Source of the DNA: Rhodovastum atsumiense | Lineage (GTDB): Bacteria > Pseudomonadota > Alphaproteobacteria > Acetobacterales > Acetobacteraceae | DNA: 64,000 nt | Reading direction: 5' to 3' | NCBI RefSeq assembly: GCF_937425535.1 | Contig: NZ_OW485601.1 | Span: 2,506,501-2,570,500, forward strand | Shown here: positions 2,152 through 6,052 of the stretch, piece after piece | Numbering within the stretch: the stretch's first letter is position 1 | Layout: the number at the start of each line of letters is the position of its first letter | Notes under the pieces: generated by a model | The model's input: only the letters and a program-made list of their open reading frames with translations | The model's database searches: none | Told to the model about the DNA's origin: nothing | Position numbers and translations under genes: made by a program

Positions 2152-2535
2152 TCAGGGGCGCTGGAGGAAGACCCAGAAGCCCCCGGCCCGCGCCGATTGG
2201 ACCCGCACCTGCAGCACGCGATCGGCATCCTCGAAGTCGCCGGTGTGCTCGAAATGAATGTCCAGGGTGCCGCGCGCCAGCGCCGCTTCGATCCGGCCCC
2301 GGAAGTCCGGCGTGTTCATGCAGGGGGCGATGTCGGTGAAGAAGGTATGGCCCAGCCGCTCGCGCGCGCCGCTGCCGGACAACCGCCTTTCGCTGGCGCT
2401 GTAGTGGCGCACGATGCCCTGCTCATCCACCCGGATCACGCCGAAGGACAGGGCGTCGATCTGCGCCGGCGTCAGTCGCTCGATCACCCGGGCAAGGTCG
2501 GGACGATCGAAATCAGGCAGATCGTTGGATGTCAT
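2152..2535 (-). CDS. pyp: Photoactive yellow protein (PYP)
   Basis: A 127-residue PAS-fold blue-light receptor expected to carry p-coumaric acid as a thioester. The whole length aligns with the 125-residue Halorhodospira PYP with a constant +3 offset. Chromophore Cys69 is C72 (DIAPCMNTPDF), Tyr42 is Y45 and Glu46 is E49 (HYSASE). Thr50 is S53 and Arg52 is S55. The C-terminus FWVFLQRP matches YWVFVKRV. I start at 2535 rather than the ATG at 2568 because GGAGA lies 7 bases upstream and this restores the family length. The start lies inside the 3' end of the upstream kinase-like gene (23-bp overlap), so translation is probably coupled. No tyrosine ammonia-lyase or p-coumarate:CoA ligase gene is in the window, so the chromophore must be supplied from elsewhere. 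Confidence 0.93.
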   Translation of the reverse strand: MTSNDLPDFDRPDLARVIERLTPAQIDALSFGVIRVDEQGIVRHYSASERRLSGSGARERLGHTFFTDIAPCMNTPDFRGRIEAALARGTLDIHFEHTGDFEDADRVLQVRVQSARAGGFWVFLQRP

Positions 2536-4546
2536 GCGTGGTCTCCGCATCGGAATCGATGATTGCAATGCTTAGCAGATGCGTCATCGGGCCGCCGCCC
2601 GTCGACAGCGGCAGCACCAGCCGCTCGATGCGGACAGGCGGGCTCTCGTCGAGCGAGAACCGGACATGGCTGAGGCCGGGCCGCCGCGTCCTGGCGCAGC
2701 GCGCATAGGCACCGCGGATCGAGCCGATCATCGCATCCGCCTGCGCGTGCAGGGGCTCGCCCGCCAGGTCCCGGCCGAGCCGCTCCGTGAGCGAGCGGCC
2801 GACCCGCAGGAAGCGGAAGGCGATCGGGTCGGCACGGGGATCCACTTCGACCAGCGCCGCATGGTCGGCGACATCCAGGGCGGCGAGATCGATTGCCTCG
2901 GGGGACGGCAGGCTGCCGCCGACGGCGAGCCTGGTCCAGGCCTGATAGACCCCGCGCAGCCGCGCATCGTGCAGCCGGGCCGCCAGCGGATCCGGCCGGG
3001 GCGCCGCCGCGCTGCGCCGGCCGAGCTTGCGCAGCACGGTGGCGGCCAGATCCGGCCCGCTGAACGGCTTGGCGAGCAGATCCTCGCCCGGCAACGCTTC
3101 CCTGGCGTCGGGGTCGCCGGAAATGAACAGGACCGGCAGGCCTGGCCGCTCCACCTGCAGCAGGGCTGCGAGGGACGTGCCGGTTCGTCCGGGCATCGTC
3201 ACGTCGAGTATGGCCAGGTCGATGGCCGGCTCGGTGCGCGCGAGCAGCACCGCGGTGGCGCTGCCACCCGCTTCCAGCACCGCATAGCCAAGTTCGACCA
3301 GTGTTTCCGCCGATAGCGTGCGCAACGCTGGGTCATCATCCACCAAAAGGATAGTGGCGCCACCATGCGGAGTGGTCTGGGCGGGTGTGCCCGCGCGATC
3401 GGCGCCGCCGACGCAGGGCAGCAGCAAGGTGACCCGCGCGGCCTCGCCCGGGGCGCCCGCCATGAGCAGGTTGCCACCCGACCGCTCGGCGAAGGCCCGG
3501 GCCACCGTCAGGCCGAAGCGGCTGCCAGGGTCGGTGAAGAAGCCCGGAGCGATGCAGCCGGGGGCGTCCGCCACCCGCTCCCCGCGTTCCGCCGAGATCG
3601 AGAAACCGACATGACCCATGCCGCCCGGCACCTCGGCCGCCACGTTCTCCGCCACCACCCGGAGCGTGCCGCCCTGCGGCAGGGATTCGCGCGCCTCCAC
3701 GGCGAGCGCGATGAGCGCGGTTTCCAGCCCGCGGGCGTCGGCGATCACGTGCCAGGTCCCCGGCCGCACCTGCACGTCGCAGAGGATGCGCGGTCCACAG
3801 GCCTGGCGGATGAACAGGTCAATGCCGGCGAGCAGCCCGGCGACTTCGATCGTCGTGGCCGCGGACGGGCGCTGGCGGACGAAGCCGAGCAGCCGGCGCA
3901 GCAGATGCATCCCGTGCTCGGTGGCCTTTGCCCCTGCCGCCGTCGCCTCGCGTACCCGTGGATCGGTGCTGAGCCGGTCGATCAGCCAGTAGCTGCTGCC
4001 GACCACGGTGAACATGTTGTTGAGGTCGTGCAGCATGCCGCCGGTCAGTTCACTGATCGCCGCGAGCCGCTCGGCGTGGTCGCGGTCGGACGCCAGATCC
4101 GCCTCGGGCGGCGTCAGCGCGCTGACATCGGCGGTGATCCCGCTGGCCCGGGCCGGTGCCTCGCCGGCCCGGGCCAGCGCCTCGCCCTGCAACCACAGCC
4201 AGCGCACGCGGCCATCCGGCAGGGACATGCGCAGGCGACGGCAGATGCGGCCGCCTGCCTTCAGGGCGATCATGTCTGACTCAAAATCGAACTGGTCCGC
4301 CGGATCGATCCGGTTCAACAGATCCGTGACGGTGGCTGCGGCGACATGCGGGAGATTCCACAACTGCCCGGCCACTGGCGAGCCCCGCAGCGTGCCGCTC
4401 GCGAGGTCGATCTCCCATACCCCGATGCCGCCGGCCTGCAAGGCCTCGTCGACCGCGGGACCGGGCGATGGGAAAGGGGCCCCGCCGGCTTCGGCAGTCG
4501 CCTGGACGGCGTGTGTCGGTAAGCCATGCGTGGGCCGTGCCGTCAT
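2513..4546 (-). CDS. PAS / histidine-kinase-like / receiver / PAS_5 protein with degenerate ATPase domain
   Basis: A 677-residue soluble signalling protein with no membrane segment. It has a PAS domain (about 38-145); an HWE/HisKA-like dimerisation helix with a conserved phospho-acceptor, H173 in GGMLHDLNN; a region in the HATPase position (about 265-378); a receiver with acceptor D448 (AILDVTMPG) and K493 (LLAKPFS); and a C-terminal PAS_5-like domain (about 548-660, FRFLRVGRSLTERLGRD). The ATPase boxes are eroded. The N-box Asn is E284 (LAVEARESLP), no DxGxG is present (SAERGERV), and the G2 box is reduced to GSRFGLTVA. The intact kinase at 20365-22713 shows what these boxes normally look like. 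It overlaps the PYP gene at its 3' end. It is probably a light-pathway partner that receives phosphate or transmits conformation rather than a working kinase (inference). Confidence 0.85.
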   Translation of the reverse strand: MTARPTHGLPTHAVQATAEAGGAPFPSPGPAVDEALQAGGIGVWEIDLASGTLRGSPVAGQLWNLPHVAAATVTDLLNRIDPADQFDFESDMIALKAGGRICRRLRMSLPDGRVRWLWLQGEALARAGEAPARASGITADVSALTPPEADLASDRDHAERLAAISELTGGMLHDLNNMFTVVGSSYWLIDRLSTDPRVREATAAGAKATEHGMHLLRRLLGFVRQRPSAATTIEVAGLLAGIDLFIRQACGPRILCDVQVRPGTWHVIADARGLETALIALAVEARESLPQGGTLRVVAENVAAEVPGGMGHVGFSISAERGERVADAPGCIAPGFFTDPGSRFGLTVARAFAERSGGNLLMAGAPGEAARVTLLLPCVGGADRAGTPAQTTPHGGATILLVDDDPALRTLSAETLVELGYAVLEAGGSATAVLLARTEPAIDLAILDVTMPGRTGTSLAALLQVERPGLPVLFISGDPDAREALPGEDLLAKPFSGPDLAATVLRKLGRRSAAAPRPDPLAARLHDARLRGVYQAWTRLAVGGSLPSPEAIDLAALDVADHAALVEVDPRADPIAFRFLRVGRSLTERLGRDLAGEPLHAQADAMIGSIRGAYARCARTRRPGLSHVRFSLDESPPVRIERLVLPLSTGGGPMTHLLSIAIIDSDAETTHDIQRSA

Positions 4547-5011: not shown

Positions 5012-6052
5012 ATGGCCCAGCAGCAAGCCGGCACGCCGATCCCTGCAACCCTCATTCCCGGAGATGGCATTGGCCCCGAGATCGTCGAGGCGGTCGTCCG
5101 CATCCTCGACGCCATGGGTTCGCCCTTCAGTTGGGACGTCCAGCAAGGGGGGCTTGCCGGCATCGCCGCCTGCGGCGATCCATTGCCGGCCGCCACGCTC
5201 GAAAGCATCCGCCGGACCCGGCTCGCCCTGAAGGGGCCGCTGACCACGCCGGTCGGCGGCGGGTTCCGGTCGGTCAACGTGCGGCTACGCGAAGAATTCG
5301 GCCTCTACGCGAATGTGCGCCCGGTCCGCACCATGGTGCCCGGCGGCCGCTACGAAGATATCGACCTGGTGCTGATCCGTGAGAATCTCGAAGGGCTCTA
5401 TGTTGCCTTCGAGCACTACATCCCGGTGGGGGACGACCCGCAGGCGGTCGCGATTTCCTCCGGCGTGAACACCAAGGCGGGGGCACGGCGGATCGTCGAG
5501 TTCGCGTTCGAATACGCGCTGCGCAACGGGCGCAAGAAGGTCACGGTGGTGCACAAGGCCAATGTGCTGAAGGCGCTGACCGGCATCTTTCTCGAAACCG
5601 CCCGTGCCGTGGCCCGTGGCTACGAGGGCCGCGTGGCGATGGACGAGCGCATCGTCGATGCCTGCGCCATGCAACTGGTGCTCAATCCCTGGCAGTTCGA
5701 CGTCATCGTCACCACCAACCTGTTCGGTGACATCCTGTCCGACCAGATGGCCGGGTTGGTCGGCGGCCTGGGCATGGCGCCCGGCGCCAATATCGGGCCC
5801 GGGGCGGCGATCTTCGAGGCGGTGCACGGCTCGGCCCCCGACATCGCCGGCAAGGGCGTGGCCAATCCGCTGGCGCTGCTGCTGGCGACCGCGCTGATGC
5901 TGGATCATGTCGGCCGCGGTGATCTCGCCACGGCGCTGCGCACCACGCTGGATGCGGTGCTGCGCGAGGACAATATCCGCACCCGCGACCTCGGCGGTAC
6001 CGCCGGCACCAGCGACTTCGCCGATGCGGTGGTGCGGCGGCTGGCGGGCTGA
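5012..6052 (+). CDS. NAD-dependent isocitrate dehydrogenase (isocitrate/isopropylmalate dehydrogenase family)
   Basis: Oxidative decarboxylation of isocitrate to 2-oxoglutarate, in the cytoplasm. The 346-residue protein has the family hallmarks: LIPGDGIGPEI at the N-terminus, LKGPLTTPVGGGFRSVNV followed by LREEFGLYANVRPVRT (substrate loop and Arg residues of the IDH3-like subgroup), the catalytic Lys region VHKANVLKAL, the Mg-binding TTNLFGDILSD, and the NAD-selective EAVHGSAPDIAGKGVANP. The first two blocks favour isocitrate over isopropylmalate dehydrogenase. An in-frame ATG at 4982 is possible, but the ATG at 5012 has AGAGGA 5 bases upstream and is preferred. It is a single gene ended by a strong hairpin. 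Homoisocitrate dehydrogenase is a less likely alternative. Confidence 0.85.
   Translation: MAQQQAGTPIPATLIPGDGIGPEIVEAVVRILDAMGSPFSWDVQQGGLAGIAACGDPLPAATLESIRRTRLALKGPLTTPVGGGFRSVNVRLREEFGLYANVRPVRTMVPGGRYEDIDLVLIRENLEGLYVAFEHYIPVGDDPQAVAISSGVNTKAGARRIVEFAFEYALRNGRKKVTVVHKANVLKALTGIFLETARAVARGYEGRVAMDERIVDACAMQLVLNPWQFDVIVTTNLFGDILSDQMAGLVGGLGMAPGANIGPGAAIFEAVHGSAPDIAGKGVANPLALLLATALMLDHVGRGDLATALRTTLDAVLREDNIRTRDLGGTAGTSDFADAVVRRLAG

Follow-up and report, generated by a model that had tools for sequence, protein, structure and literature searches.

Recurrent pairing of photoactive yellow protein genes with a PAS_5-like domain, and a pseudokinase-receiver version of the pair in Rhodovastum atsumiense

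The window analysed here is a stretch of 64,000 nucleotides from Rhodovastum atsumiense (contig NZ_OW485601.1, positions 2,506,501 to 2,570,500), a member of the Acetobacteraceae whose genome comprises 9 contigs, the first of 6,482,810 bases. Two overlapping genes on its reverse strand were studied. The downstream gene (2152..2535), recognized from the list of open reading frames, a profile match and its pocket residues, encodes a photoactive yellow protein (PYP) of 127 amino acids counted from ATG 2535; the frame opens upstream at TTG 2568, and ATG 2535 was chosen as the start. The upstream gene (2513..4546), defined by its open frame and by profile matches, encodes a 677-amino-acid protein with PAS-like, pseudo-histidine-kinase, receiver and PAS_5-like parts. 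A first-pass annotation had placed the PYP start codon within the 3′ end of a multi-domain gene, and we confirmed this: the two genes share 23 nucleotides (2513..2535), and a GGAG Shine-Dalgarno motif lies 7 nucleotides before ATG 2535.

The 677-amino-acid protein begins with a weak PAS-like region (residues 37-142; 4121..4438, reverse strand like the parts that follow) detected with a FixL profile. This is followed by a degenerate histidine-kinase core (about residues 154-385; 3392..4087), in which the H-box His is kept and residues of the N-box, the D-box and part of the G2-box are lost, and by a receiver (REC; residues 399-503; 3038..3352) with the acidic pair, the phospho-acceptor Asp, Ser and Lys intact. 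The C-terminal PAS_5-like PAS domain (about residues 520-677; 2516..2989), delimited by profile and model, is the conserved neighbour of PYP. The earlier naming of these domains held for the receiver, where the match is clear (Pfam E 8e-14); PAS_3, HATPase_c and PAS_5, by contrast, stay under the Pfam cut-offs: the whole-protein scan gave PAS_3 at E 0.026 and HATPase_c at E 0.035, both below their cut-offs, and did not list PAS_5.

The three key PYP residues named by the first-pass annotation, Y45, E49 and C72, are present. They equal Y42, E46 and C69 in H. halophila numbering, and the p-coumarate pocket, judged by Tyr/Phe42, Glu46 and Cys69, thus has Y, E and C. From its sequence, the window PYP probably binds p-coumarate. 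It matches solved PYPs (best phmmer E 7e-23) and falls within the PYP tree. Its TIGR02373 match (E 6.7e-27, 94 bits) is under the 143-bit equivalog cut-off of a strict profile, which covered 20% of BLAST-identified PYP homologues (PMC9664959). Ser is found at position 50 in the window PYP, as in all 23 pocket-intact members of its clade (see below). In PMC12826048, both PYPs with Ser50 that were measured absorb at 432-434 nm; by analogy, a blue-shifted absorption maximum is predicted for the pocket-intact clade PYPs.

The genome has one strong match to 4-coumarate-CoA ligase (323 bits, just below the 334.7 cut-off; the next match has 58), which sits at its second pyp locus with two further PYPs. 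This single ligase could serve all three PYPs of the genome. At that locus (L004, 8425-11270 and 7069-8304; G000:C1 ~4033.1-4037.3 kb, G000 being the genome of the window), the ligase-like gene points away from a series made up of a tandem PYP pair, a GGDEF-HisKA-HATPase gene and a receiver gene; the kinase gene overlaps both of its neighbours, the last PYP and the receiver gene, by 4 nucleotides each. A dedicated tyrosine ammonia-lyase was considered and rejected: only one aromatic lyase is encoded in the genome, in a histidine-utilisation-like context, and its frame neighbours and SHAAG motif resemble what we take to be a histidine-utilisation operon.

Adjacency to pyp, which the first-pass annotation had named as the support to look for, is conserved across the Acetobacteraceae, and pairs are found in other families too. 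The searches covered 397 genomes at family level, 385 at class level and a collection of named genomes. In the family set, PYPs were taken at E 1e-8 or better with up to 10 candidates scored per genome, 2 candidates per genome were scored for the 677-amino-acid protein, and the PAS_5-like domain was sought with a profile of 21 sequences (A1), up to 9 matches being scored per genome, so that the domain counts are lower bounds. A PYP match was obtained in 33 of the 397 family genomes, and at least 25 domain matches in at least 19 of them. Fourteen of these matches adjoin a PYP, one pair (G368) is split over two contig ends and 10 are without a PYP. The sole further domain match above 100 bits in the class set (G740) has a PYP directly downstream; the next matches reached at most 84 bits, and the three that were tested are ordinary PAS_5 proteins. 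Of the 75 PYP loci in the named genomes, the 15 closest were examined apart from the other 60, and the domain lies directly upstream of PYP in 14 of the 15 versus 0 of the 60. Seven of these 15 coincide with loci already present in the searched genome sets. The closest loci include those of Rhodopila globiformis (two loci), Dankookia rubra, Roseomonas nepalensis, Paeniroseomonas aquatica, three Sphingomonas, Skermanella aerolata, a Rubellimicrobium metagenome-assembled genome (MAG) and the betaproteobacterium Azohydromonas aeria. The adjacency is thus not limited to the source genome: 22 distinct PYPs from several families adjoin a domain-bearing neighbour, which puts the pairing beyond chance.

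The constant part of the neighbour is the C-terminal PAS_5-like domain and not the whole architecture of the 677-amino-acid protein, which had been proposed as the PYP partner. The partners are hybrid kinases of 677 to ~1890 amino acids (some measured from stop to stop) whose N-termini differ widely, PAS-containing HWE kinases (L070 and L076, a receiver gene overlapping the PYP end by 4 nucleotides in L076) or the domain alone, as in the 174-amino-acid protein of R. globiformis (L071). Since HWE kinases and a standalone domain substitute for it, the 677-amino-acid architecture itself was rejected as the conserved partner. R. globiformis (G382) has three units with three different partners, and in L074 the order is reversed, with PYP upstream of the kinase gene. 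Where PYP lies downstream (21 loci), it overlaps the partner for every start codon considered in 8 loci and for one of them in 6 more. The gap is at most 60 nucleotides for at least one start codon in 19 of the 21; the spacing is looser in L070 (~140 nucleotides) and L076 (490 nucleotides).

Taken alone, the window domain matches PAS_5 (PF07310) at E 9.5e-4 and 19.5 bits, below the 22-bit gathering cut-off, and the best PAS_5 score among eight relatives scanned whole was 17.1 bits against the same cut-off. The domain profile does retrieve PAS_5 proteins. The domain differs from them in staying under the cut-off, in its usual attachment to signalling proteins and its frequent pairing with PYP, and in forming a branch of its own, separate from 30 generic PAS_5 sequences (support 94/94). 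An AlphaFold2 model (predicted local distance difference test score, pLDDT, 90.6) has a PAS fold with a five-stranded sheet and PAS helices, and among the solved folds compared its best matches are PAS domains, PYP among them, with modest Z. The domain is a divergent PAS_5 relative with a predicted PAS fold. The shared fold proves no contact with PYP; profile-profile comparison of the domain with PYP gave no kinship signal, and no solved sequence relative of the domain was found at E 1.

PAS domains commonly pair with PAS domains. For this reason docking at the PAS_5-like domain is favoured, and we lean, with some reserve, towards PYP being a detachable blue-light input that docks on this domain of the upstream protein, the window pair being a light-gated receiver or scaffold. 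PYP would bind the C-terminal domain as a PAS-PAS heterodimer, light would alter PYP, PYP would alter the PAS_5-like domain, and the change would be passed to the attached output, which is mostly an intact-motif hybrid histidine kinase, sometimes an HWE kinase and in one case none. The pairing and its recurrence are seen in the genomes themselves; the docking and the direction of the signal are what we infer.

The composition of the partners is also open to the reading that PYP acts on the histidine-kinase core generally, a mode of action already suggested for PYP-kinase operons in the literature, and that the PAS_5-like domain is a passenger. Most partner proteins are hybrid kinases, and kinase genes beside PYP genes have been published (PMC12826048, PMC9664959); equal mirror-tree correlations for the kinase and the domain (below) would fit as well. 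However, the domain persists where the kinase is of the HWE type (L070, L076) or absent (L071), and the window protein has lost its kinase motifs yet kept the domain, the REC and the PYP. We regard this explanation as unlikely. The same loci could alternatively hold two independent inputs, PYP and a ligand-sensing PAS_5-like domain without contact between them, in a light-plus-ligand cassette. PAS domains often bind ligands, and this frequency, like the occurrence of unpaired domain copies, speaks for such a cassette, but overlap or spacing of at most 60 nucleotides in 19 of 21 loci and the restriction to one PYP clade suggest a more specific bond, and it appears improbable.

The clade was delimited in a tree of 113 distinct PYPs, from which matches shorter than 85 amino acids were excluded; this dropped both PYP fragments of genome G271. 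All 22 domain-adjacent PYPs are inside one clade of 26 rows (support 100/100), which spans Acetobacteraceae, Sphingomonadaceae, Azospirillaceae, one Roseobacteraceae MAG and one betaproteobacterium. The remaining four rows are L078, at a contig end in G368, and L118, L098 and L099, which have lost pocket residues and are without a PAS_5-like domain beside the PYP. Thus, the pocket-intact clade PYPs in the tree all adjoin the domain (L078 may do so), and the pocket-less ones are all without it. Such an association would arise about once in 2600 if the rows were independent; on the tree it amounts to two independent losses. Both types, pocket-intact paired and pocket-less unpaired, occur together in each of G227 and G076. 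For the 87 PYPs outside the clade, no domain match of at least 20 bits was found within 600 nucleotides upstream, a length of sequence that was available for 83 of them.

The paralogues L098 (5594-5974) and L099 (5181-5558), without Y42, E46, C69 and an adjoining PAS_5-like domain, are candidates for a non-photoreceptor PYP. In L019, L021, L024, L026 and L028, PYP matches lie inside open frames of 381 to 1089 codons, and these frames probably encode multidomain PYPs belonging to a different clade. A further group of PYPs has a gas-vesicle gvpA-like gene nearby (L095 3112-5714, also L090, L093, L094, L097 and L102; PF00741 E 2e-15 was tested in L095 only, and the other five share its start). 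PYP close to gas-vesicle genes was reported previously (PMC3646047, PMC6273459).

Several observations weigh against the docking reading. The domain also occurs apart from PYP, since 10 of the 25 family matches are without an adjoining PYP (two in G271, one each in G121, G266, G080, G161 and G035, the second copy in each of G000 and G245, and one partial match in G383), and unpaired copies make up 9 of the 32 rows of the domain tree, at scattered positions. In G271, a clade PYP that looks intact but is divided between two fragments at contig ends lies beside neither of the genome's two domains. L098 and L099 are sisters, so the agreement of pocket loss and domain absence in 3 of 3 rows comes from only two independent pocket losses. 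No open frame with both PYP and the domain was found among the loci examined, and a natural fusion as a docking model was therefore dropped. The mirror-tree correlations over 19 pairs (PYP-domain 0.47, PYP-histidine kinase 0.47, PYP-REC 0.49) do not single out the domain, and co-divergence was rejected as a proof of PYP-domain contact. At the window pair itself, promoter and terminator patterns were sought and none was found, which leaves the overlap as the sign of a shared transcript. Apart from these points, L210 (5929-6378) and L211 (5300-5761) are short frames (189 and 221 codons) with a PAS_5-like domain, are sisters in the domain tree (100/99) and have no PYP in the surrounding stretch examined.

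The partner in the window differs from its relatives in its kinase core. We compared 25 hybrid kinases with the domain (19 paired with PYP and 6 unpaired), HWE-type, standalone and L119 partners being excluded. The N-, D- and G2-box residues examined are all kept in 24 of them, the window protein being the sole exception: its N-box Asn residues are changed to Ala and Glu, the Asp and glycines of the D-box are lost, and so is part of the G2 box. The H-box His is kept (HDLNN), and the receiver residues D, D, D, S and K are intact, whereas unlike residues replace receiver residues in five other hybrid kinases (L069, L077, L079, L085, L116). Only the kinase core of the window protein is unusually diverged (DHp z -5.3, CA z -6.6), in contrast to the REC (z -0.4) and the PAS_5-like domain (z -0.8), which indicates that light input and receiver were kept and the ATP-binding part was not. 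The first-pass interpretation needs a correction at this point: domain, REC and PYP are kept, but the ATP-binding motifs found in the 24 others are lost. By its motifs, the window partner is a pseudokinase, and because these motifs are lost, normal kinase output from it is unlikely.

Strong divergence of the kinase core might also mean that the window pair is a decaying system, a dead kinase whose remainder is being lost, while two other PYPs in the genome lie beside a Pfam-recognised kinase gene and a receiver gene. Nevertheless, both frames are open, the overlap is retained, the REC active-site residues, the PAS_5-like domain and the PYP pocket are all kept, and the window PYP resembles its relatives (0.54) about as much as these resemble one another (0.56), so that decay seems very unlikely to us. 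If the pair works by docking, it would be a light-gated receiver or scaffold without ATP-binding motifs of its own. We infer that another kinase, such as the paralogue at G000:C1:6239269, would phosphorylate the window REC and perhaps also the retained H-box His, and that light would change phosphoryl exchange at the window receiver. More broadly, and only tentatively, PYP and the PAS_5-like domain could form a portable two-gene light-input cassette placed on several outputs, here on a pseudokinase-receiver, with blue light gating phosphotransfer in trans. The paralogue in the source genome (L085 4376-6901; G000:C1 ~6238.4-6240.9 kb) has intact kinase motifs and a receiver with Asp changed to Glu, and no PYP was found within the 12 kb examined. 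It is roughly the reverse of the window protein; that the two work together is no more than a suggestion.

The unit in the window appears to comprise two genes. The convergent gene ending at 2045 resembles the C-terminal part of acyl-ACP-phospholipid O-acyltransferase family proteins and is cut by the window edge; a divergent gene starts at 5012, leaving 465 nucleotides of intergenic DNA before the 677-amino-acid gene. In two loci of the window's genus (L068 3283-10836 in G076 and L072 506-8440 in G227), the kinase/PAS_5-like/PYP unit is preceded by a kaiC-kaiB-kaiB-hybrid kinase cluster (in L068, Pfam KaiC E 1.7e-105 and KaiB E 1e-25 and 7e-25). Named copies of the L068 and L072 contigs aside, neither the window nor the loci from L065 onwards gave another kaiBC match. 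In L065 (3334-6119, G245), the kinase/PYP unit faces convergent genes for a bacteriophytochrome kinase and a receiver, which suggests that red and blue light are sensed next to each other.

Kinase genes beside PYP genes are already known in kind. HisKA or HATPase genes were found in 17 of 113 pyp operons, preferably upstream (PMC12826048), and kinases adjoin clade-A PYPs (PMC9664959). As in our loci, a free PYP is accompanied there by a kinase gene, and a two-component output was proposed; the passages of these two papers considered here, supplementary tables aside, do not name the PAS_5-like domain, the pairing clade or the pseudokinase. The cassette with this domain and its pseudokinase version were not found in print, and no description of the PYP/PAS_5-like pairing was found in the open-access literature covered, including PMC10468136 and PMC6848086, with subscription papers and supplements outside the search. 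Ppr of Rhodospirillum centenum, a PYP-phytochrome-histidine kinase, likewise has a histidine kinase that takes its light input from PYP, but it is one fusion with an N-terminal PYP, whereas here the PYP is separate and the partner ends in the PAS_5-like domain. Bipartite sensing by a separate PAS-type sensor and the output of a partner gene is also seen in the Idiomarina loihiensis PYP with an adjacent GGDEF protein, the Leptospira PYP with an adjacent chemoreceptor and Campylobacter CetA/CetB (PMC9664959); these have other output domains, and the text of that paper names no PAS_5-like docking candidate.

Most PYPs are single-domain proteins, and their signal transduction chain was called an important gap (PMC12826048); according to PMC9664959, the way in which they pass the signal to their partners is still not known. 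A candidate at the level of a domain, its 174-amino-acid standalone form and natural controls in the form of pocket-less PYPs without the domain make this question testable with small proteins. For R. atsumiense G2-11, gene deletion and conjugation have been described (PMC9938234). The pair could also offer a two-part blue-light input for optogenetics.
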